Below, piece after piece: positions 1 through 9,000 of a DNA stretch of 32,292 nt (within the stretch, counting starts at the first letter, position 1; the number at the start of each line of letters is the position of its first letter). The DNA is from Candidatus Methylomirabilota bacterium. GTDB lineage: Bacteria > Methylomirabilota > Methylomirabilia > Rokubacteriales > DASRDR01. The stretch lies in the NCBI GenBank assembly GCA_036005065.1, contig DASYQW010000026.1, forward strand, positions 1 through 32,292. Direction: 5' to 3'. A program made the position numbers and the translations under genes. The notes under the pieces were generated by a model. That model was not told the DNA's origin, searched no databases, and saw nothing but the letters and a program-made list of their open reading frames with translations.

Positions 1-113
1 GCGCCGGCGTCCTCGGCGATCTTGGCCTGCTCGGCGGTCGTCACGTCCATGATGACGCCGCCCTTCAGCATCTCCGCGAACCCGACCTTGAGCCGCAGCG
101 TCCCGAGCTCCAT
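1..113 (-). CDS. pdxS: Pyridoxal 5'-phosphate synthase subunit PdxS, N-terminal part (runs off the window)
   Basis: Only the first 37 codons are in the window; the gene continues beyond base 1. The peptide contains the hallmark PdxS/SNZ start, with [14 protein letters not shown] followed by [11 protein letters not shown]. PdxS is the synthase subunit of the deoxyxylulose-5-phosphate-independent vitamin B6 route. It joins ribose 5-phosphate, glyceraldehyde 3-phosphate and ammonia (supplied by the glutaminase PdxT) into PLP in the cytoplasm. The start is the ATG at 113-111, preceded by a strong ribosome site, GGAGGAG (read on the minus strand at 127-121). A promoter with an inverted repeat lies about 45 bp upstream. 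pdxT would be expected next to it, outside the window. Identification is from the N-terminus only but the motif is highly characteristic. Confidence 0.9.
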
Positions 114-147
114 CGCGAACCTCCTCCGGGCGTTCTCTCGATTGGCT

Positions 148-188
148 CAATTGGATCATCATATATGAAGGATGTAAAGATCCAATTG
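148..188 (-). promoter_or_regulatory. pdxS promoter with a 10-bp inverted-repeat operator
   Basis: On the minus strand a -35 TTGGAT (185-180) and a -10 TATGAT (163-158) are spaced by 16 bp and point at pdxS. A perfect 10-bp inverted repeat, CAATTGGATC at 148-157 and GATCCAATTG at 179-188, has a 21-bp spacer. One arm covers the -35 and the other lies just downstream of the -10. The stretch is strikingly AT-rich for this genome. The position suggests an operator; PLP-sensing MocR/PdxR regulators are known to control pdxST in other bacteria, but no such gene is visible here. Confidence 0.6.
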
Positions 189-193
189 GCACG

Positions 194-223
194 CCCCGGT
201 GCAGGCCAATCCACCCACCGGGG
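194..223. other. Stem-loop between pdxS promoter and zinc-ribbon gene
   Basis: CCCCGGTG at 194-201 pairs perfectly with CACCGGGG at 216-223 around a 14-nt loop. There is no T-run on either side, so it is not a convincing intrinsic terminator. It lies downstream of the minus-strand zinc-ribbon gene and could still help end that transcript. Confidence 0.35.
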
Positions 224-307
224 TGAGCGTGCGGCTCAGAGCGCGTGAGAAAGAGCGCGGGGTGTGGCCCTTGCGCTGAGACTTGACCGCCCCCCGACCG
301 GATGGTC

Positions 308-338
308 CGCTTCGAGCGGCGGCTTTGCCGCCGCAACG
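308..338 (-). repeat. Dispersed hairpin repeat, copy D
   Basis: Read on the minus strand this is GTTGCG, then stem GCGGCGGC / GCCGCCGC around AAA, then CTCGAAGCG. The same layout occurs at 12737-12767, 18730-18760 and 32065-32094 with different but still self-complementary stem bases. It lies 17 bases beyond the stop of the minus-strand zinc-ribbon gene and has the same orientation as that gene. Confidence 0.7.
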
Positions 339-354
339 ATCCGGGGGAGTGCCC

Positions 355-567
355 TCAGGCGGACTCGTCCTCGGGCACGTCCTGGTGCGCCTGGCAGGCG
401 AGGCAGACCCACCGCCGCCACACCCGGCGCTCGCGGTCCCGCCGGAGGTACCACCGGGTCAGCGTCTGGCGGCCACAGACCGGGCACTGCCGCGCCTCGG
501 CAGGGTCGGGCGAGGGGGGCGGATAGTAGGTGCGACGCTCGGTCGGGACGTCGGGTGTCGCGGGCAT
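355..567 (-). CDS. Small zinc-ribbon protein, function unknown
   Basis: A 70-residue protein with two CxxC pairs: CPVCGR near residue 26 and CLAC near residue 55, separated by an arginine/tryptophan-rich stretch. This spacing is typical of a one-metal zinc ribbon. There are no membrane segments and the C-terminus is acidic. I take the ATG at 567-565 as start. A TTG at 603 is in frame but looks like part of a -35 box instead. No ribosome site precedes the ATG, and the predicted -10 is only 7 nt away, so the mRNA may be leaderless. The transposon at 619 inserted immediately upstream of this promoter. Such small ribbons act in nucleic-acid binding or protein contacts, but nothing here shows which. 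Its reality rests on the two well-spaced Cys pairs and the promoter. Confidence 0.6.
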   Translation of the reverse strand: MPATPDVPTERRTYYPPPSPDPAEARQCPVCGRQTLTRWYLRRDRERRVWRRWVCLACQAHQDVPEDESA

Positions 568-574
568 CGCGCCT

Positions 575-603
575 ATGATTGCCCCGGCCCGCCCGCCAGT
601 CAA
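575..603 (-). promoter_or_regulatory. Promoter of the zinc-ribbon gene (leaderless type)
   Basis: TTGACT (603-598), a 17-bp spacer and AATCAT (580-575), read on the minus strand. Only 7 nt separate the -10 from the ATG at 567, so transcription would start at or next to the start codon. The transposon target duplication at 611-618 lies just upstream and leaves both boxes intact. Confidence 0.45.
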
Positions 604-610
604 GGGCGGG

Positions 611-618
611 CGGCGTGG
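611..618 (+). repeat. Target-site duplication, left copy
   Basis: CGGCGTGG here is repeated exactly at 4249-4256, directly outside the two terminal inverted repeats of the transposon. An 8-bp duplication is within the 8-9 bp usual for IS1-family insertions. Confidence 0.9.
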
Positions 619-634
619 GGTAGTGTCCTAATTT
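619..634 (+). repeat. Left terminal inverted repeat of the transposon
   Basis: GGTAGTGTCCTAATTT, a perfect inverted match to 4233-4248. Its last base (634) is also the last base of the restriction enzyme stop codon (636-634, minus strand), so the cargo gene runs right into the element end. Confidence 0.92.
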
Positions 635-1206
635 CACTCCGGGGTGGTCGGGTAGGTCCCGGACGCCTTCTTGGGCTGCTTCGGCAGGGCCGGGCCGGGG
701 CCATCGTGTTCGATTCCGATCAGGATGATGGGCAAATCCTCTACCCGGGCCTCCCGGATCATTCGCCGTGCGTCGGCGAGCCTCGGCCCACGGTCGGTCA
801 GGAATGGCCCGAGCTTATCGCTCGGCACTACCAGGATGCCGACGTCGATGCCGCCGCTCGTCAGAGCCAGCCTCAAGTGGATCAGATCAATGATGATGAG
901 ATCGCTACGGGCAGACATTTGGACTTCTACGCCAAGACATACCTCCGTCCCGTTGACAACGCGACACTTCGTCCAGTCCACGGCCCCAGTCTGGCGTTTC
1001 TTCCAACCCGTCTTCCGACGCGCCTCAAATCGGGCGTCGAGCAGCACGCGGACTGCCTTCCCACCGTTCGCGTTCTTCCTTTCCTTGACGAGCAGGGCGA
1101 ACCCCTTGAGAATCTCTTGGACTTCGCGATAGACCGGCGCCAGGCCAAGCCGGGCGATCTTCTCGACGGCCCCGCCAAATGGAACCTCGTCGGTGATCTT
1201 CGGCAC
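634..1206 (-). CDS. BglII-like type II restriction endonuclease
   Basis: A 190-residue protein, close to the size of BstYI and a little shorter than BglII. Around residues 77-125 it shows D77, then VEVQ with E94 and Q96, and then GGIDVGILVVPSDKL. In BglII the active site is Asp-Glu-x-Gln, with glutamine replacing the usual lysine of PD-(D/E)xK enzymes, followed by a conserved IDVG...VP segment. The match in order and spacing is what I rely on. The enzyme would cut unmethylated palindromes; BglII/BstYI cut within GATC-centred sites, but specificity here cannot be read. The start is GTG at 1206, 5 nt after the methyltransferase stop, so it is the third cistron of the operon. Its TGA stop shares a base with the left inverted repeat. 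Family assignment is by motif only, without a database search. Confidence 0.72.
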   Translation of the reverse strand: MPKITDEVPFGGAVEKIARLGLAPVYREVQEILKGFALLVKERKNANGGKAVRVLLDARFEARRKTGWKKRQTGAVDWTKCRVVNGTEVCLGVEVQMSARSDLIIIDLIHLRLALTSGGIDVGILVVPSDKLGPFLTDRGPRLADARRMIREARVEDLPIILIGIEHDGPGPALPKQPKKASGTYPTTPE

Positions 1207-1211
1207 GGACC

Positions 1212-2033
1212 CTAGCGGAAGATGGCCGACAGCCTCTTGGCTGGAGTCGATACTACCGAGCCGAAACGCTCCGTAAGTCGCTGAGCGACTGGCGCGCAGT
1301 CCGTGATCTCCGAGCCGATCCAGTAGCGCTTGAGCGCCTCGGCCGCTTCATAGCTTGACCCGCCGCCCCCGAATGGGTCTAGGATGATTTCCCGCGGATT
1401 GGTGGCGATCTGGAAGCACCGGCTGGCGATCATCGGCTTTAGCTCGTTGACGTGCCATCGGGTCTTGAATTTCCGGTGACGTGCCGGCGCGGTGTCGTCC
1501 CAGAAATCCGTGAGGTTGAGCCCAAGCGGGTTCAGATACTTCCGGTGGCCACCGTAGTCCTTGATGTCCTTGCCGCAGTGGCGACACGTCGGGATCGGAA
1601 GACGGACGCGGTTGAACGTCGCCGGCTGCCCCTTGGTGAAGTAGAGCAGCGCATAGTGAGCGGGATAGAGCTTCCGCCCACGGGGGAACGTCCCCTTCAT
1701 CGACAACGCGATCCAGTGCCGGAAGAGCATTCCCCGCTCTTCGAGATGCGAGGCCAAATGGTAGCCCCACTGCGGCAGGATGTAGATGAATACCGCGCCG
1801 CCCGGCTTGACGACGCGCACACTCTCATCGACCCAGGCAAACGACCACTTGAGGTAGTCCGTTTGCGCGAGGTCATCCTTGCCGGTGCCGTTCCCATAGT
1901 CTTTGCCGAGATTGAACGGCGGATCGGCAAAGACGCACTGCACGGACTCATCCTTGAGCGCCGCGAAGAGGTCCATACAGTCGGCCTGATAAAGCAGGCC
2001 GTACCGCGTCGTGAGGGCCGGCGCGCCGATCAT
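1212..2033 (-). CDS. DNA methyltransferase (N6-adenine/N4-cytosine, beta-class order)
   Basis: A 273-residue AdoMet-dependent DNA methyltransferase. The catalytic motif IV is FADPPFNLG (DPPF at 37-40). The AdoMet-binding motif, ILDPFGGGGSS, comes near the C-terminus (about 230-240), which is the beta-class arrangement. Between them lie LKWSFAWVDESVRVVKPGG and a middle region with a CxxC pair (CRHCGKDIKDYG), probably part of target recognition. DPPF leaves adenine-N6 versus cytosine-N4 open. It should protect the host from the adjacent BglII-like endonuclease. The ATG at 2033 overlaps the transposase stop as ATGA, so translation is coupled to the transposase. This ensures that methylation capacity is made whenever transposase is made and before the downstream nuclease. 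Confidence 0.88.
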   Translation of the reverse strand: MIGAPALTTRYGLLYQADCMDLFAALKDESVQCVFADPPFNLGKDYGNGTGKDDLAQTDYLKWSFAWVDESVRVVKPGGAVFIYILPQWGYHLASHLEERGMLFRHWIALSMKGTFPRGRKLYPAHYALLYFTKGQPATFNRVRLPIPTCRHCGKDIKDYGGHRKYLNPLGLNLTDFWDDTAPARHRKFKTRWHVNELKPMIASRCFQIATNPREIILDPFGGGGSSYEAAEALKRYWIGSEITDCAPVAQRLTERFGSVVSTPAKRLSAIFR

Positions 2034-2989
2034 GCGACCAGCTCCGCCAGCTCCCACACGCGATCCGAGGCTCCGGCCGCCATCGCCGGCGTGATTCGCA
2101 GGCTCCGGTGAATCCGGACCAGGTTGTACCACGCGAAGTGAACCGCCAACGCGGCCTTCAGGTTCTCTAGCTTCTTGCTGAAGCCATTGGTCAGCCGCGT
2201 GAAGCGTCGGCAGGCCATTCGGACCGTGAGATTCTGTCGCTCGATGAAGCTGGTAGAGATCAGGGCCGGGTCGGGCGTCCCGTGGATCACGGTTGGGACC
2301 GCCTCCAGAATCTTGGGCGGCGAGTACCGGGCGGGACCAGGGAGAGAGGCGCCGTAGAGCTTCACAAGCTGGCCGAAGTCCGGCGCGTCGGCCCCCCAAG
2401 CATGTTCAACAGCTCCGATATAGGGCACGAAGCCATCGGTCGTCAACTGAAAACGAAAGGACTCCGCCAGCCGGGCCTTGAGCGCGTCCATGAAGCGATA
2501 GGCCGTGACCATGTTCCGCTTGCCGACGTCGAAGTGCGGGATCAGCTTAGTCTCAGCGTCGATGGCGACGAAGGCGTATTGATCCCCCACGTCGAGCCGG
2601 AGCCGATCCTCGAACGAGAGCCGCGCCTGCTTCTTCTGGACGAAGGTCCACAGCTCGTCGACTTGCAGGCTCCGGCACCGAAGATCACGCATCGTCTCGG
2701 CCAGGATTGCCTGGCACCGCTCGCCGGTCCGAACGAGCAACCGCATGATGGTGTCGCGATGGACGCCGGTCAAGCGCTCCGTGCTCCGGATGCTGTTCCC
2801 TTCAACAAGGGTGGCGATGACGGCAAGCTTCTTTTCGGGCGCAAGCACATACACGGTGGGCCTTCCGTTTCTGCCCGGAAGGTCGTAGACTAGGCGTGGC
2901 GACCAACCGCACCTAGCGGCCTTCGGGCTGTTGGGGTGGGACGCCAGCCCCCGGGTCGTTCTAGCGGCTCGGGGGTTTTGCTTGCCCAT
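2030..2989 (-). CDS. IS1-family transposase (single-ORF type)
   Basis: A 319-residue DDE transposase. The N-terminal third carries a helix-turn-helix, around LVEGNSIRSTERLTGVHRDT (about residues 62-81), comparable to the DNA-binding InsA part of IS1. The catalytic portion has VDELWTF (first Asp), TDGFVPY (second Asp) and FIERQNLTVR followed by RRFTRLTNGFSK. The IERxNLTxR...R block is the signature of IS1 transposases. It is longer than IS1 InsAB' (about 230) and needs no frameshift, as in single-ORF subgroups of the family. It acts on the 16-bp ends at 619 and 4248. The ATG at 2989 lies only 6 nt from a predicted -10, so the mRNA is probably leaderless, which would keep translation low. It is the first cistron of the transposase-methyltransferase-endonuclease operon. 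Confidence 0.9.
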   Translation of the reverse strand: MGKQNPRAARTTRGLASHPNSPKAARCGWSPRLVYDLPGRNGRPTVYVLAPEKKLAVIATLVEGNSIRSTERLTGVHRDTIMRLLVRTGERCQAILAETMRDLRCRSLQVDELWTFVQKKQARLSFEDRLRLDVGDQYAFVAIDAETKLIPHFDVGKRNMVTAYRFMDALKARLAESFRFQLTTDGFVPYIGAVEHAWGADAPDFGQLVKLYGASLPGPARYSPPKILEAVPTVIHGTPDPALISTSFIERQNLTVRMACRRFTRLTNGFSKKLENLKAALAVHFAWYNLVRIHRSLRITPAMAAGASDRVWELAELVA

Positions 2990-2995
2990 GCCCCT

Positions 2996-3024
2996 ATCCT
3001 ATGCTTGCCCGAGTAGGAAGTCAA
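2996..3024 (-). promoter_or_regulatory. Promoter of the transposase/R-M operon (leaderless)
   Basis: Minus-strand TTGACT (3024-3019), 17 bp, TAGGAT (3001-2996), followed after 6 nt by the transposase ATG at 2989. The predicted start of transcription coincides with the start codon and there is no ribosome site. One 12-bp direct repeat (3006-3017) sits inside the spacer, where a bound protein would block this promoter. Confidence 0.6.
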
Positions 3025-3051
3025 GCGCTATTTCTTGTGTGCCCGAGCAGG
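3006..3051 (+). promoter_or_regulatory. Pair of 12-bp direct repeats, candidate operator shared by divergent promoters
   Basis: TGCCCGAGTAGG at 3006-3017 and TGCCCGAGCAGG at 3040-3051 differ at one base and are 34 bp apart, close to three helical turns. The first lies within the transposase promoter spacer and the second ends 2 bp before the -35 of the P63C promoter. That is a natural layout for joint repression of both directions; the binding protein is not known. Confidence 0.5.
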
Positions 3052-3053
3052 CA

Positions 3054-3082
3054 TTGACATTCCGTGCAAGAGCAAGTATGAT
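3054..3082 (+). promoter_or_regulatory. Promoter of the P63C-domain gene
   Basis: TTGACA (3054-3059), 17 bp, TATGAT (3077-3082): a near-consensus sigma-70 promoter and the strongest in the window. A GGAGG ribosome site (3091-3095) and the ATG at 3102 follow. Confidence 0.75.
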
Positions 3083-3101
3083 GGGCGGTAGGAGGTGGCT
3101 C

Positions 3102-4178
3102 ATGGAGCAGATGAATAAGCACGCCCAGGCACTCTCGGCCCTCGGCGCCGCGAAAGGAGGGAAGGCTAGGGCCGCCGCCCTCACTGCTGAGGAACGATCG
3201 GATATCGCCAGGATGGCTGCGGAAAAGAGATGGTCAGGGGAACGCGATCAGTCCGTGGCACTCGCTATGCCCCGCGAGACCCATCCCGGCATCCTCCGCA
3301 TTGGAGATCGCCAAATCCCCTGCTCCGTGCTGGACAATGGCCTCCGGGTACTCTCGGCCGGCGGAGTATCGCGTGCCCTAGGTAGCCGAAAGGTCGGGCG
3401 GAATCAACCGCCCGGAGAGCAAACCGAGGTCCTTCCTCAACTGCCACCTTTTTTGGCCGCAAAGAACCTCCAGCCCTTTATTCCCGGCGACTTACTCGCC
3501 CTCCTCATCTCTCCGGTTCGGTACAAGCCTTGGCGGGGGGGCCGAGTGGGCTATGGCTATGAAGCAACCCTCCTGCCCCGAATCTGCGGTGTCATCTTGG
3601 ACGCCCATAAGGCCGGTGCCCTGCGCTCCAATCAACTCCGGCTCGTGGAGATTGCGGAGTTGCTGCTTCGTGGCTTTGCGCACGTCGGGATCATTGCTCT
3701 CGTAGACGAAGCCACGGGTTATCAAGCGGAACGGGCCAAGGACGAGCTAATGCGCATCTTGGAGGCGTACATCTCCAAGGCGCTTCTGCCGTGGACTCAG
3801 CGATTTCCAGATGACTTTTTCAAGGAGATTTACCGGCTACACGGCTGGCAGTTTCGAGAGGGGCATACTCGCGGTCCGAGAATTGTAGGGAAGCTGATCC
3901 GACAGCTCGTCTACGATCAGCTCCCGCGCGGCGTCATTCAGGAGCTAGAGGTTCGGAACCCGCAATTGCCGAGCGGATGGCGCCGCCACAAGCATCACCA
4001 ATTCTTGACCGAGGATATTGGGCATCCGCACCTTAACAATCAGGTGGCTTCCGTCATGACCCTTATGCGAGCCTCCACAAGCAAGCACGAATTCATGAAG
4101 CTGTTTGCCCGAGCGTTTCCGAAACCCGGGCAGGGGGAGCAACTGGAGTTGCCGGAATCTGAGGAGGAGGTCAGCTAG
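3102..4178 (+). CDS. P63C-domain protein, transposon passenger
   Basis: A 358-residue protein. Residues 10-45 contain the alanine/lysine-rich motif ALGAAKGGKARAAALT followed by EERSDIARMAAEKRW, common at the start of small phage and plasmid proteins. The C-terminal half matches the P63C domain known from phage and mobile-element proteins: LLPWTQRFPDDFFKEIYRLHGW (written here in pieces as LLPWTQRFPDDFF and KEIYRLHGW), then GPRIVGKLIRQLVYDQLP, HKHHQFLTEDIGHPHL and VMTLMRAS. The biochemical role of P63C is not established. The start ATG at 3102 has GGAGG six bases upstream and a near-consensus promoter. It is divergent from the transposase and ends about 55 bp before the right inverted repeat, so it moves with the element. 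A role in regulation, anti-phage function or element maintenance is possible but not shown. Confidence 0.82.
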   Translation: MEQMNKHAQALSALGAAKGGKARAAALTAEERSDIARMAAEKRWSGERDQSVALAMPRETHPGILRIGDRQIPCSVLDNGLRVLSAGGVSRALGSRKVGRNQPPGEQTEVLPQLPPFLAAKNLQPFIPGDLLALLISPVRYKPWRGGRVGYGYEATLLPRICGVILDAHKAGALRSNQLRLVEIAELLLRGFAHVGIIALVDEATGYQAERAKDELMRILEAYISKALLPWTQRFPDDFFKEIYRLHGWQFREGHTRGPRIVGKLIRQLVYDQLPRGVIQELEVRNPQLPSGWRRHKHHQFLTEDIGHPHLNNQVASVMTLMRASTSKHEFMKLFARAFPKPGQGEQLELPESEEEVS

Positions 4179-4232
4179 GCCCATGTCGGGGTGGCGGCCC
4201 GACCGTGCCAGGCCGCCGCCAAGGAGCCAGCC

Positions 4233-4248
4233 AAATTAGGACACTACC
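4233..4248 (-). repeat. Right terminal inverted repeat of the transposon
   Basis: AAATTAGGACACTACC, the exact reverse complement of 619-634. It is followed directly by the right copy of the target duplication. Confidence 0.92.
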
Positions 4249-4256
4249 CGGCGTGG
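4249..4256 (+). repeat. Target-site duplication, right copy
   Basis: CGGCGTGG, identical to 611-618. The unmutated pair indicates that the two ends still belong to one insertion event. Confidence 0.9.
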
Positions 4257-4291
4257 CCTGGCCGGTGGGTGGGTCCGCCGGTCCCCGGGTG

Positions 4292-4308
4292 TATACTGCC
4301 GGCGGAGG
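4292..4308 (+). promoter_or_regulatory. Candidate -10 and ribosome binding site of nadE
   Basis: A TATACT hexamer at 4292-4297 is the only AT-rich block between the transposon and nadE. No good -35 is visible 16-18 bp upstream. GGAGG at 4304-4308 lies 7 nt before the GTG at 4316 and fixes that start. The transposon end is only about 45 bp upstream of the hexamer. Confidence 0.4.
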
Positions 4309-4315
4309 ATACGGC

Positions 4316-6052
4316 GTGCGGCGGCTCCGGATCGCTCTCGGCCAGATCAACGCGACGGTCGGCGACCTCGAGGGCAATACCCGTCGTGTCCTGGACGGGA
4401 TCGACCGGGCGCGGGCGATCGGGGCCGACCTGGTCGCGTTTCCCGAGCTGGCGCTCACCGGCTACCCGCCCGAGGACCTCCTCTTCAAGCCGGCCTTCAT
4501 CGAGGCGAACCTCCGGGCGCTGGACGACGTCGTGCGCGCCAGCGACGGGCTCACCGTGGTGGTCGGATTCGTGGACCGACGCGACGACATCATGAACTCG
4601 GCGGCCGTCATCCACGATGGGGTCCTGGCCGGGGTCTATCACAAGCAGTACCTCCCGAACTACGGCGTCTTCGACGAGAACCGGTACTTCCAGGCCGGGA
4701 CCGAGACCCCGGTCTTCGAGCGGGATGGGCCCGCCGGGAGCACCGTCGTCGCGGTCAACATCTGCGAGGACATCTGGTATCCCACCGGGCCGGCCACCGC
4801 CCAGACGCTTGCCGGCGCCGAGCTGATCGTGACCATCACCTCGTCGCCGTACCACGCGGGCAAGGTGCACGCCCGCGAAAAGATGCTGGCCACGCGCGCC
4901 GCCGACCACGTCGCCTGTCTGGCCTACGCCAACCTCGTCGGGGGCCAGGACGAGCTGGTGTTCGACGGCCAGTCGATGATCTTCAACGAGCTGGGGGAAC
5001 GGCTGGCGCTCGGGCGCCCTTTCGAGGAAGACCTGATCGTGGCCGACCTCGACCTGGAGGCGGTGTTCCGGGCCCGCCTGCACGACTCGCGGCGACGGAA
5101 GGAGAAGCTCGGCGCGACCGCGCCCGTCCGGCGGATCGTCTTGCCGGCTCTGCCGGCGCGGCCGTGGCCCGCGCTCCCGCCGCGGGCGGACGCCTTTCTC
5201 GGTCCGGTGGCCGAGATCTATGCGGCGCTCGTCCTCGGCACCCGGGACTACGTCCGGAAGAATGGCTTCCGGCGCGTGGTGATCGGGCTGTCGGGCGGCA
5301 TCGACTCGGCGCTGACGGCCGCCATCGCGGTCGACGCGCTGGGGTGCGACAGCGTGGTCGGCGCGTCCATGCCCTCGCCGTTCTCCTCGGCCGGCACCCG
5401 GGCGGACGCCCGGCGGGTGGCGCGGAACCTCGGCATCGAGTTCCTGACGCTCCCCATCACGCCGGCCTTCCGCGCGTTCCGGCGGGTCCTGGCGCCCCCG
5501 TTCAAGGGCCTGAAGGAGGACGTGGCCGAGGAAAACATCCAGGCGCGCGTTCGGGGCACGCTCCTCATGGCGCTGTCCAACAAGTTCGGCTGGCTCGTCC
5601 TCACTACCGGGAACAAGAGCGAGATGGGCGTCGGGTACTGCACGACCTACGGTGACATGGCCGGGGGCTTCGCCGTCATCAAGGACGTGCCGAAGACGAC
5701 GGTCTACGCGCTGGCCCGGTACCGCAACGGGCGCGACGGGCAGCCCGTGATCCCGGAGAGCGTGCTCACGCGGGCCCCGTCGGCCGAGCTGCGCCCGAAC
5801 CAGACCGATCAGGACACCTTGCCGCCTTACGAGGTCCTGGACCGCATCCTCGAGGCCTACGTCGAGGAGGACCGCTCGCTCGCCGAGATCGTCGCGCTCG
5901 GCTTGGACGAGGCCACGGTGCGCAAGGTCGTCACGATGGTGGACCGAAACGAGTACAAGCGGCGGCAGGCCCCACCCGGAATCAAGATCACCCCGCGGGC
6001 CTTCGGCCGCGACTGGCGCCTGCCCATCGTGAACCGCTTCCGGCATCCCTGA
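4316..6052 (+). CDS. nadE: Glutamine-dependent NAD+ synthetase
   Basis: A 578-residue two-domain enzyme that makes NAD+ from deamido-NAD+, ATP and glutamine in the cytoplasm. The N-terminal nitrilase-type glutaminase domain has the triad E44 (FPELALTGYPPEDLL), K110 (VYHKQYLPNYG) and C150 (VNICEDIW). The C-terminal synthetase domain has the ATP-pyrophosphatase loop SGGIDSA starting at S326, then TTGNKSEMGVGYCTTYGDMAGG. Length and order match bacterial glutamine-dependent NadE. The GTG at 4316 is chosen over upstream in-frame codons because of the GGAGG at 4304-4308 and because the protein then starts at the usual RLRIALGQIN. The regulator pseudogene follows 24 nt downstream, so co-transcription is possible. 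The upstream region was cut by the transposon insertion but the immediate start region is intact. Confidence 0.95.
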   Translation: MRRLRIALGQINATVGDLEGNTRRVLDGIDRARAIGADLVAFPELALTGYPPEDLLFKPAFIEANLRALDDVVRASDGLTVVVGFVDRRDDIMNSAAVIHDGVLAGVYHKQYLPNYGVFDENRYFQAGTETPVFERDGPAGSTVVAVNICEDIWYPTGPATAQTLAGAELIVTITSSPYHAGKVHAREKMLATRAADHVACLAYANLVGGQDELVFDGQSMIFNELGERLALGRPFEEDLIVADLDLEAVFRARLHDSRRRKEKLGATAPVRRIVLPALPARPWPALPPRADAFLGPVAEIYAALVLGTRDYVRKNGFRRVVIGLSGGIDSALTAAIAVDALGCDSVVGASMPSPFSSAGTRADARRVARNLGIEFLTLPITPAFRAFRRVLAPPFKGLKEDVAEENIQARVRGTLLMALSNKFGWLVLTTGNKSEMGVGYCTTYGDMAGGFAVIKDVPKTTVYALARYRNGRDGQPVIPESVLTRAPSAELRPNQTDQDTLPPYEVLDRILEAYVEEDRSLAEIVALGLDEATVRKVVTMVDRNEYKRRQAPPGIKITPRAFGRDWRLPIVNRFRHP

Positions 6053-6076
6053 CCGCGCGCGCCGCCGGGAAGCCAC

Positions 6077-9000
6077 GTGCCCGGCCGGGTGCCCTCCCCG
6101 GCGAAGACAACCCGTCCGAATCCGGCCGGCATCCTCCCGCGTCCCCGCCTGTTCCGGCTGCTCGATCGCGCCCGTCGGCGGCCGGTCGTCTGGGTGACCG
6201 GTCCCCCGGGTGCGGGCAAGACCAGCCTGGTCACGGGCTATCTCGCGGCCCGCCGCCTCCGGAGCCTGTGGTACCAGCTCGACGAGGGTGACGGCGACGT
6301 CGCGACCTTCTACCATTACCTGGGGCTGGCGGCCGGCCGACAATCCTCGCGGCGCCTCCGGCTCCCGCCGCTGACGCCCGAGCGCTGGCTCCGGCTCTCC
6401 CTGTTCGCGCGCGAGTACTTCCGGGCGCTCTACGCGGGCCTCCGGAGCCCCTTCGTCCTCGTGCTCGACAACTATCACGAGGTCCCGGCCGACGCGCTGT
6501 TCCACGACATCGTCCACGACGGGCTCGGCGAGCTCCCGCCGGGCGGGCGTGTCCTGGTGCTGAGCCGCAGCGAGCCCCCGCCGGCCCTCGCTCGGCTGCG
6601 CGCGAGCGACGCCCTCGAAGTCGTGGGGTGGGGCGCCCTCCGCCTGACTCTGGAAGAAGCCCGAGGCATTGCGCGCCAGCGCGAGGAGGGCCACCTGCCG
6701 GACGCCACCGTCCGGGCGTTGCATGCCACGACCGAGGGCTGGGCGGCCGGCCTGGTTCTCATGCTGGCGGGACGCGAGGCCGGGTCCGCGGCGCCACGCG
6801 CACCGGGCAGCCACGGGCCGGAGGCGGTCTTCGACTACTTCGCGGGCCAAGTCTTTCGGAAGGCGGATCCGGAGACGCAGCGCTTCCTGCTGGAGACCGC
6901 GTTCTTGCCGAGCATGACAGGGCGCATGGCGGCCGAGCTGACGGGCCTGGACCGGGCCGAGCGCATCCTCGCCGATCTCTGCCGGCGGAGCTACTTCACC
7001 GAGCGCCGGGCTCAGCCCGAGCCGGTCTTTCAGTACCACGCGCTGTTCCGGCTCTTCCTTCGGAGCCGCGCCATCCAGACCCTCTCGGCCGACGAGCTGG
7101 CCGGCGTGCAGCGCCGGGCGGCCACCCTGTCGGCGCGGGCCGGACAGGTGGAGCACGCCGTGGGACTCTTGCGCGAGGCGGGTGACTGGGAAGGCCTGGC
7201 CCGGGTGATCACCCGAGAGGCGCCCGCCCTCCTGGCCCAGGGGCGCAGCGTGACGCTCGAGGAGTGGATCGCCGGCTTGCCGCCGGACCTGGCGGGGGCG
7301 GACGCCTGGGTGCAGTACTGGCTGGGCACCTGCCGCATGCCATTCGACCCCGCGCGAGGCCGTTCGCCTCTGGAGCGCGCGTTCCAGCTCTTCCGCCGTG
7401 ACGGGAACGCCGACGGCGCCTTCTCGGCCTGGTGCGGAGCGGTGGGGACCATCCTCTACGAGTGGGGCGACTTCACGCGCCTCGACACCTGGATCCGCCT
7501 GCTCGACGAGCTGTGCCGCGAGTACCCGTCCTTCCCGTCCCCGGCGCTCGAGACGCGCGTGGCCTCGACGATGTTCGGCGCGCTGGCGTTTCGTCAGCCG
7601 GACCACCCCGAGATCGCGCGCTGGGCCGACCGCGCGTTCGCCCTCTCGCGGGCCAGCCCCGACGTCAACCGCCGGATGCTGACCGGGTTCATGCTGGCGA
7701 CCTATCACCTGTGGATCGGCAACCTCGCCAGGGCGGCTCTCGTCATCGAGTCGCTCCGGCCGCTGGCCCGCTCGCGCGACGCCACCCCCCTGGTCCGCCT
7801 GACGTGGGCTCTGGTGGAGGCCTATCACGGGTGGCAGGCCGGATTCCCCGAGGAGTCGCTGCGGGCGGCCGCGGCCGGTCTGGAGACCGCCGAGGTCACC
7901 GGGGGGTCCATCTCTGGGACTCCGAGCTCCTCGCCCAGGGAGCCTACGCGGCCCTGACGGCGGGCGACGTCCCGGCGGCGCAGGCCTTCCTCCAGCGGAA
8001 GGCGGCGGTGATGGACGGCGGGCGCGCCCTCGACGTCTCCCACTACCACTATCTCTCCGGGTGGGTCGCCGTTCTGCAAGGGGATCTCCTCCGCGCCCGG
8101 GAGTGCGTGGAGGCTGCGTTCCCGATCCAATCGGGGGTGCCGTTTCCCCTGGCGCTGAACCATCTGGCCCTGGCTCAGGTCCTCCACGAGTCGGGGGAAG
8201 ACGCCGCGGCCGCCGAGCACCTCGAAGGCGCTCGACGCATCGGCCGCGCGATGGGAAGCCGCCTGCTCGAGTACATGTGCGCTCTGGTCGAAGCGCGCGG
8301 GGCCGAGACGACGAAGGACTCGCGGCGCTGGCCCGGGCGATGGCGCTGGGTCGCGACGGGGGCTACGTGACCACCGCCTGGTGGCGCCCGGGGATGATGG
8401 CCGAGCTGTGCGCGCGTGCTCTGGCGGCCGGAATCGAGCCGGAGTACGTCCGGGAGCTCGTGCGTCGGCGCCGGCTCGTCCCCGACCAGCCGCCCCTCGA
8501 CGTTCCGGAGTGGCCGTGGCCGCTTCGCGTCCACACGCTGGGCGGATTCCGTCTCGAGAAGGATGGCCGTCCGGTCGAGTTCACCGGCAAGGCTCAGCGC
8601 AAGCCCATGGCGATGCTCGAGGCGATCGTGGCCTTCGGAGGTCGGGGGGTCCACGAGCCGCAACTCGCCGAGGCCCTGTGGCCCGATGCCGAGGGGGACG
8701 CCGCCCACCAGGCGTTCGCGACGACTCTGCACCGCCTCCGGCGCCTGGTCGGGCAGGACGACACCGTCGCCCTGCGCGAAGGACGCGTGAGCCTCGACTC
8801 CCGCCGCTGCTGGGTCGACGTCTGGGCGTTCGAGGCCCTGCTGGACCAGGCGGACGCCGAGAAGGCGGGCAACGCCGCGCGCGCCCGGACCCTCGGCGAG
8901 CGCGCCCTCGCGCTCTATCGGGGCCCCTTCCTCGGGCCCGACAGTCCCGCGTGGGCCGTCGCGGCCCGCGAGCGCCTGCGGCGGAGGTTCCTCCGGGGCG

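Follow-up and report, generated by a model that had tools for sequence, protein, structure and literature searches.

Positions 634-2989 of the window (the whole stretch of 32,292 nucleotides analysed, contig DASYQW010000026.1 from a Candidatus Methylomirabilota bacterium) contain genes for a transposase, a DNA methyltransferase (M) and a nuclease (R) that follow one another almost without spacing and end in an inverted repeat. The question raised by this locus is how such an order has arisen. The original prediction answered it with 'co-evolution, not random capture'. The analysis described here leads to a different answer: the genes very probably belong to an IS1-family transposon with passenger genes ('tIS'), in which a restriction-modification (R-M) unit was captured whole and docked at the transposase stop and at the end of the element.

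The element and its ends

The element is delimited by perfect terminal repeats and by an exact duplication outside them:

619-4248 (3,630 bp), IS1-type transposon with four genes (transposase, M, R and a P63C-domain gene)
619-634, plus strand, left terminal inverted repeat GGTAGTGTCCTAATTT, 16/16 match to 4233-4248
4233-4248, minus strand, right terminal inverted repeat (copy of GGTAGTGTCCTAATTT), 16/16 match to 619-634
611-618, unstranded, left target-site duplication CGGCGTGG, exact repeat of 4249-4256 (sequence and repeat-pair search)
4249-4256, unstranded, right target-site duplication CGGCGTGG (sequence)

The terminal repeat occurs at two places in the window, versus 0.01 expected when up to three mismatches are allowed. 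Both ends begin with GGnnnTG, and the start GGTAGTG is shared by most of the related elements delimited below. The flanking target duplication is 8 bp long and both copies are exact. At the DNA level the element is present as a single copy in its draft genome (5.6 Mb, 419 contigs), and a DNA-level search of that genome returned no further copies; the target duplication alone thus attests to past insertion, for one copy in a draft assembly. Single near-matches to the terminal repeat, with one mismatch each, lie at G000:C100:13959 and G000:C126:1783 (L233, L234) and are possibly remnants.

The passengers between the ends are M, R and the P63C gene. The last of these (3102-4178, plus strand), left out of the original prediction, belongs to the element as well. 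A search for terminator-like sites inside the element found none.

The transposase and its leader

2030-2989, minus strand, ORF of an IS1-family DDE transposase (NCBIfam IS1, alignment and leader comparison), probable real start GTG 2854 or 2848
2996-3024, minus strand, promoter-like site of the transposase gene, TTGACT-17-TAGGAT, with a counterpart at the equivalent position of L031 and L032
2948-2975, minus strand, leader hairpin CCCCCGAGCCG..CGACCCGGGGG, between this promoter and the transposase start, also in L031 and L032

Among all insertion sequence models, the transposase is best matched by the NCBIfam IS1 model NF033558 (3.8e-15), with 56 bits against a curated cut-off of 100, so it is regarded as a divergent member of the IS1 family. 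The D and E residues are invariant in an alignment with 11 relatives, and relatives of the protein carry the annotation 'IS1 family transposase'. The IS1595 family is known for passenger genes and 8-bp duplications; it was rejected as a candidate because no IS1595 model matched.

The start at position 2989 that had been assigned originally does not hold up well, and the real one is probably GTG 2854 or 2848. The upstream ATG is probably unused because the two nearest relatives of the transposase (L031 and L032) have stops in frame upstream of a conserved MNRLK start, because a conserved hairpin lies inside the upstream stretch, and because GTG 2854 is preceded at a suitable distance by GGAAGG, a good ribosome-binding site. 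Starting at either GTG, the transposase has the same length as its relatives. The hairpin includes a compensatory pair change (covariation), seen in three sequences only (the window, L031 and L032), and the promoter at the matching place in these two relatives reads TTGACA-TATATT. As a separate observation, the promoter and the covarying hairpin (2948-3024), which the window shares with L031 and L032, might restrict how far promoters outside the element drive the transposase by read-through.

The methyltransferase and the nuclease

1212-2033, minus strand, M, N6/N4 DNA methyltransferase, 273 aa (Pfam N6_N4_Mtase 7.9e-31; PADLOC MTase_II PDLC03238 7.8e-87)
634-1206, minus strand, R, BglII/BamHI-like type II restriction endonuclease of 190 aa with a GTG start (Pfam BglII, PADLOC, PDB)

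The motifs DPPF and DPFGGGG of M are intact. For R, a distant relationship to BglII and BamHI is predicted. It scores below the family cut-offs, both for Pfam BglII (5.1e-5, 23.5 bits against 26) and for Pfam BamHI (12.1 bits against 22.8), so that it is called 'BglII/BamHI-like' and not a member of the BglII/BamHI endonuclease family. The match to PADLOC REase_II has an E-value of 1.5e-4, and that to BamHI in the PDB 0.011 by sequence and, worse, 0.3 by a profile of three homologues. Residues D77, E94 and Q96 (E94-x-Q96) are invariant in three homologues, and the stretch that contains them lines up with the D...E-x-E part of BamHI; we take the aligned residues to have the roles of the catalytic D, E, E/Q pattern. 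The single-sequence fold of R had a pLDDT of 45 and was uninformative. Independent support for the assignment comes from two relatives of M, one encoded on a Geobacillus plasmid (49% identical) and one on a Desulfocapsa plasmid (44% identical), because both adjoin BamHI-type nucleases. A search for close relatives in viral contigs and plasmids gave two weak matches for M and none for R, the plasmid relatives of M reaching at most 49% identity.

Some features could suggest that both genes are decaying, inactive remnants: M is ~12 residues shorter at its end than its homologues, and the homology of R stops at about residue 180, after which a foreign tail of 10-12 residues reads into the repeat. 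Against this stand the conserved catalytic motifs, the full cores of both proteins and the lack of stops or frameshifts in either gene, and decay is considered unlikely.

Avoidance of target sites was tried as evidence of specificity and rejected, since the relatives vary too much. None of the 28 GATC sequences in the element is part of an RGATCY site, and equally few occurred in 0.4% of order-2 simulations; in relatives RGATCY averages 9.6% and is zero in 10 of 46, and the M-R genes found without a transposon contain two or three such sites.

Junctions between the three genes

The order transposase-M-R is compact, and the junctions described originally were confirmed letter by letter. The ATG of M (2033-2031) overlaps the TGA of the transposase (2032-2030) in the tetranucleotide ATGA, a 4-nt overlap; the GTG of R (1206-1204) follows 5 nt after the TAG of M (1214-1212); and the TGA of R (636-634) has base 634 in common with the left repeat (619-634). 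Besides, a GGAG lies 8 nt before the ATG of M, inside the last transposase codons. The three genes are probably co-transcribed.

Such tight junctions are what would be expected if transposase, M and R had co-evolved as one operon and if their order served the transposon as an adaptation for becoming established. The comparisons that follow weigh this explanation against the capture of a finished unit.

A homologous pair outside the transposon

Two genomes of the same order (G089 and G091; loci L225 and L226) contain a standalone M-R pair without transposase or terminal repeats. Its proteins are 71% (M) and 62-63% (R) identical to those of the window. The order is again M-R, the flanking genes are like those of tungstate ABC transporters, and M stop and R start are adjacent with a junction of zero nt; in G091 the TGA of M is followed directly by the GTG of R. 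Since the coupled pair exists outside the transposon, the simplest reading is that tight M-R coupling predates capture. The missing end of M and the tail of R running to the repeat make it seem that the unit was inserted with boundaries almost exactly at the start of M and the end of R. On this reading the direction of capture would be from chromosome to transposon.

Cargo of related elements

Relatives were drawn from genome contigs, viral contigs and genomes of the same phylum around related transposases, and were delimited by inverted repeats and an exact 8-bp duplication, the latter being required by the search design. This gave 100 elements (101 with the window) of 1.3 to 6.2 kb, and the R-M pair of the window is in none of the 100. 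In L031 and L032, which are from the same class and have the closest transposases, the cargo is different and lacks this pair.

The cargo of the relatives is modular. The gap from transposase stop to repeat is at most 20 bp in 31 elements, in 28 of which the stop falls exactly at repeat positions 10-12, and the remainder have other ORFs or none there. As a side observation, in these 28 of the 100 scored (e.g. L056, L034 and L140) the terminal repeat itself supplies the TAG stop of the transposase. The 128 passenger ORFs that were scanned include 11 HTH-IrrE, six P63C proteins, three ClpP-like proteases, two SLFN/ATPase and two SocA-like proteins, and one each of AAA and zeta-toxin proteins.

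DNA methyltransferases are cargo in seven relatives (L034, L056, L140, L121, L141, L180 and L124). The enzyme is accompanied by an SfiI-like nuclease in L034 (2.7e-53), by a Tsp45I-like nuclease in L056 (1.2e-58) and by a PADLOC type II nuclease of PDLC03455 type in L140 (2e-150), and is fused to HNH in L121. When the eight methyltransferase carriers, window included, are placed on a quick tree of the transposases, eight changes are required without any clustering, and shuffled labels require no more; the natural reading of this pattern is that such cargo would have been acquired repeatedly and independently.

These results bear directly on co-evolution. The check proposed with the original prediction, the cargo of relatives with the same transposase, was run, and the cargo was unrelated, which goes against the prediction on its own terms. 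Because the cargo of about 100 relatives is quite different, the M-R pair appears to have been picked up as a ready-made unit and not to have co-evolved with the transposase. Co-evolution is reasonable for M and R with each other; for the transposase with the R-M genes it is not supported, given the modular cargo of the 100 relatives and the M-R pair living without a transposon.

Coupling at the transposase stop

Cargo that varies so freely downstream of the transposase could also mean that the R-M genes simply fell behind it and that the overlap is meaningless, and 4-nt overlaps are common in bacteria. This was weighed using the 63 elements with room downstream. The transposase ends in ATGA, GTGA or TTGA (NTGA) in 18 of them; 14 of these 18 have an open stretch of 60 codons or more in the overlapping frame, compared with 3 for each of the other frames. 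After transposase stops other than NTGA, the frame is open over the same length in 14 of 45. The Fisher p-values are ~2e-5 (overlapping versus other frame) and 0.0016 (NTGA versus not NTGA); relatedness was not corrected for, and both values are optimistic because one small gene family gives about six cases. The NTGA overlap nevertheless recurs with several unrelated downstream ORFs. This excess of open frames, together with the intact frames and motifs of both passenger genes M and R, makes a chance juxtaposition improbable.

In each of the IS1-borne R-M pairs (window, L034, L056 and L140), only four in number, M comes before R. R ends at element position 16 in the window, 20 in L056 and 42 in L140, that is, 0 to ~26 bp from the terminal repeat. 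The recurring 4-bp overlap and the placing of M before R, with R near the repeat, favour design over chance.

The same regularities, NTGA overlaps at transposase stops and M before R near the repeat, can be quoted for co-evolution of all three genes. On the other hand, the other three pairs (L034, L056 and L140) have both genes on the opposite strand, upstream of the transposase. Since placement behind the transposase is not a conserved trait, the order transposase-M-R is peculiar to the copy in the window. Taken with the lack of any relative carrying the same cargo, the other genes borne by the nearest transposases and the M-R coupling that exists without a transposon, this renders the co-evolution of the three genes as one operon very unlikely.

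Proposed mechanism

In the reading that is preferred here, capture of a finished unit, the transposase would mobilise all the DNA between the two 16-bp repeats and make an 8-bp duplication on insertion. A pre-existing, tightly coupled BglII/BamHI-like unit, M followed by R, would have been captured whole and docked so that the start codon of M lies inside the transposase stop (ATGA) and the frame of R runs to a TGA abutting the repeat. One transcript from the transposase promoter would cover all three genes, M would be made by termination-reinitiation at the ATGA and R after M, and methylation would then come before cleavage. The sequences directly show the anatomy and transposon nature of the element, its intact M-R unit and the geometry of the overlaps, the existence of the M-R pair as a unit elsewhere and the modular cargo of relatives; we infer co-transcription and enzyme activity, as well as the direction of capture, the recognition sequence and the biological role. 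The earlier suggestion that protection is made before the nuclease is compatible with the M-before-R order of the four pairs. Type II R-M systems are established as selfish maintenance modules, and the unit may serve both phage defence and its own maintenance, as cells losing it would risk cleavage of unmethylated sites.

Relation to known systems and significance

Insertion sequences with passenger genes have been described under the name tIS (PMC7986276). The element resembles them in having one transposase, terminal repeats, a target duplication and passengers without a role in transposition; it differs in that it carries a full R-M pair together with a P63C gene, and in the coupling of the R-M pair to the transposase stop.

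As in the IS1 family, the DDE transposase is best matched by the IS1 model, the ends are GGnnnTG and the duplication is of 8 bp. IS1 itself measures about 0.8 kb and uses an InsA/InsB' frameshift, whereas the element of the window has 3.6 kb, a single transposase ORF and a score below the curated cut-off. With BglII/BamHI R-M systems it shares the remote similarity of R, a D-x16-E-x-Q pattern and an M 44-49% identical to methyltransferases of which two, on Geobacillus and Desulfocapsa plasmids, adjoin BamHI-type nucleases; unlike the Geobacillus and Desulfocapsa plasmid pairs, M and R stand here in tandem without a neighbouring HTH regulator gene. The M-R pairs closest to that of the window are the standalone ones described above.

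No description of IS1-family elements with R-M passengers was found in the open-licence literature. Within that literature, the tIS kind is known, and R-M genes as recurrent IS1-group cargo coupled at the transposase stop look new. The usual view is that R-M systems travel on plasmids, phages and genomic islands. In the present case a full R-M pair lies within an element of 3.6 kb that has one transposase, and its transposase group would have acquired methyltransferase or R-M modules repeatedly. A wider proposal can be advanced only tentatively: small IS1-type transposons might be a widespread, general shuttle for exchangeable modules of defence or toxin-antitoxin-like character (several kinds of R-M, HTH-IrrE pairs, SLFN/ATPase, AAA, SocA-like), with the transposase stop as a reusable docking point that couples captured genes translationally. 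If defence or addiction cargo is common, these elements would be among the smallest autonomous carriers and would help to explain the scattering of defence genes across genomes. Coupling to the transposase stop also suggests how a captured gene could be expressed immediately after arrival at a new site.

The P63C gene and other passenger families

3102-4178, plus strand, P63C-domain protein, 358 aa, divergent passenger (Pfam PF10546 4e-32)
3054-3082, plus strand, promoter-like site for the P63C gene, TTGACA-17-TATGAT (11/12)

A promoter shared with phage was considered for this gene from a phage DNA match and rejected, because the match falls in the coding region. P63C-domain proteins recur as IS1-group passengers (L050, L052, L114, L115, L059, L021 and L197), usually divergent from the transposase.

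Other passenger families were noticed as well. Proteins of ~100 aa that start like MSxIxELRDVIxKLHG are found in 17 elements (L022, L023, L066, L077, L095 and L107 among them), and in several elements they overlap the transposase stop by 4 nt. A family with the N-terminal motif RSPNYPAIxLxxAI occurs in L032, L039, L048, L061 and L153, the members scanned having no Pfam match. L022 also contains a carrier of indole-3-glycerol phosphate synthase (954-3981) nested in a larger related element (22-6182). Finally, 55 of the 101 elements (e.g. L034:1842-2087 and L121:4429-4668) contain a short ORF whose product has a motif like GGKARAxxLTPEERxEIAxxAAxxRW; the motif is also N-terminal in the P63C protein, and it possibly marks a shared accessory factor.
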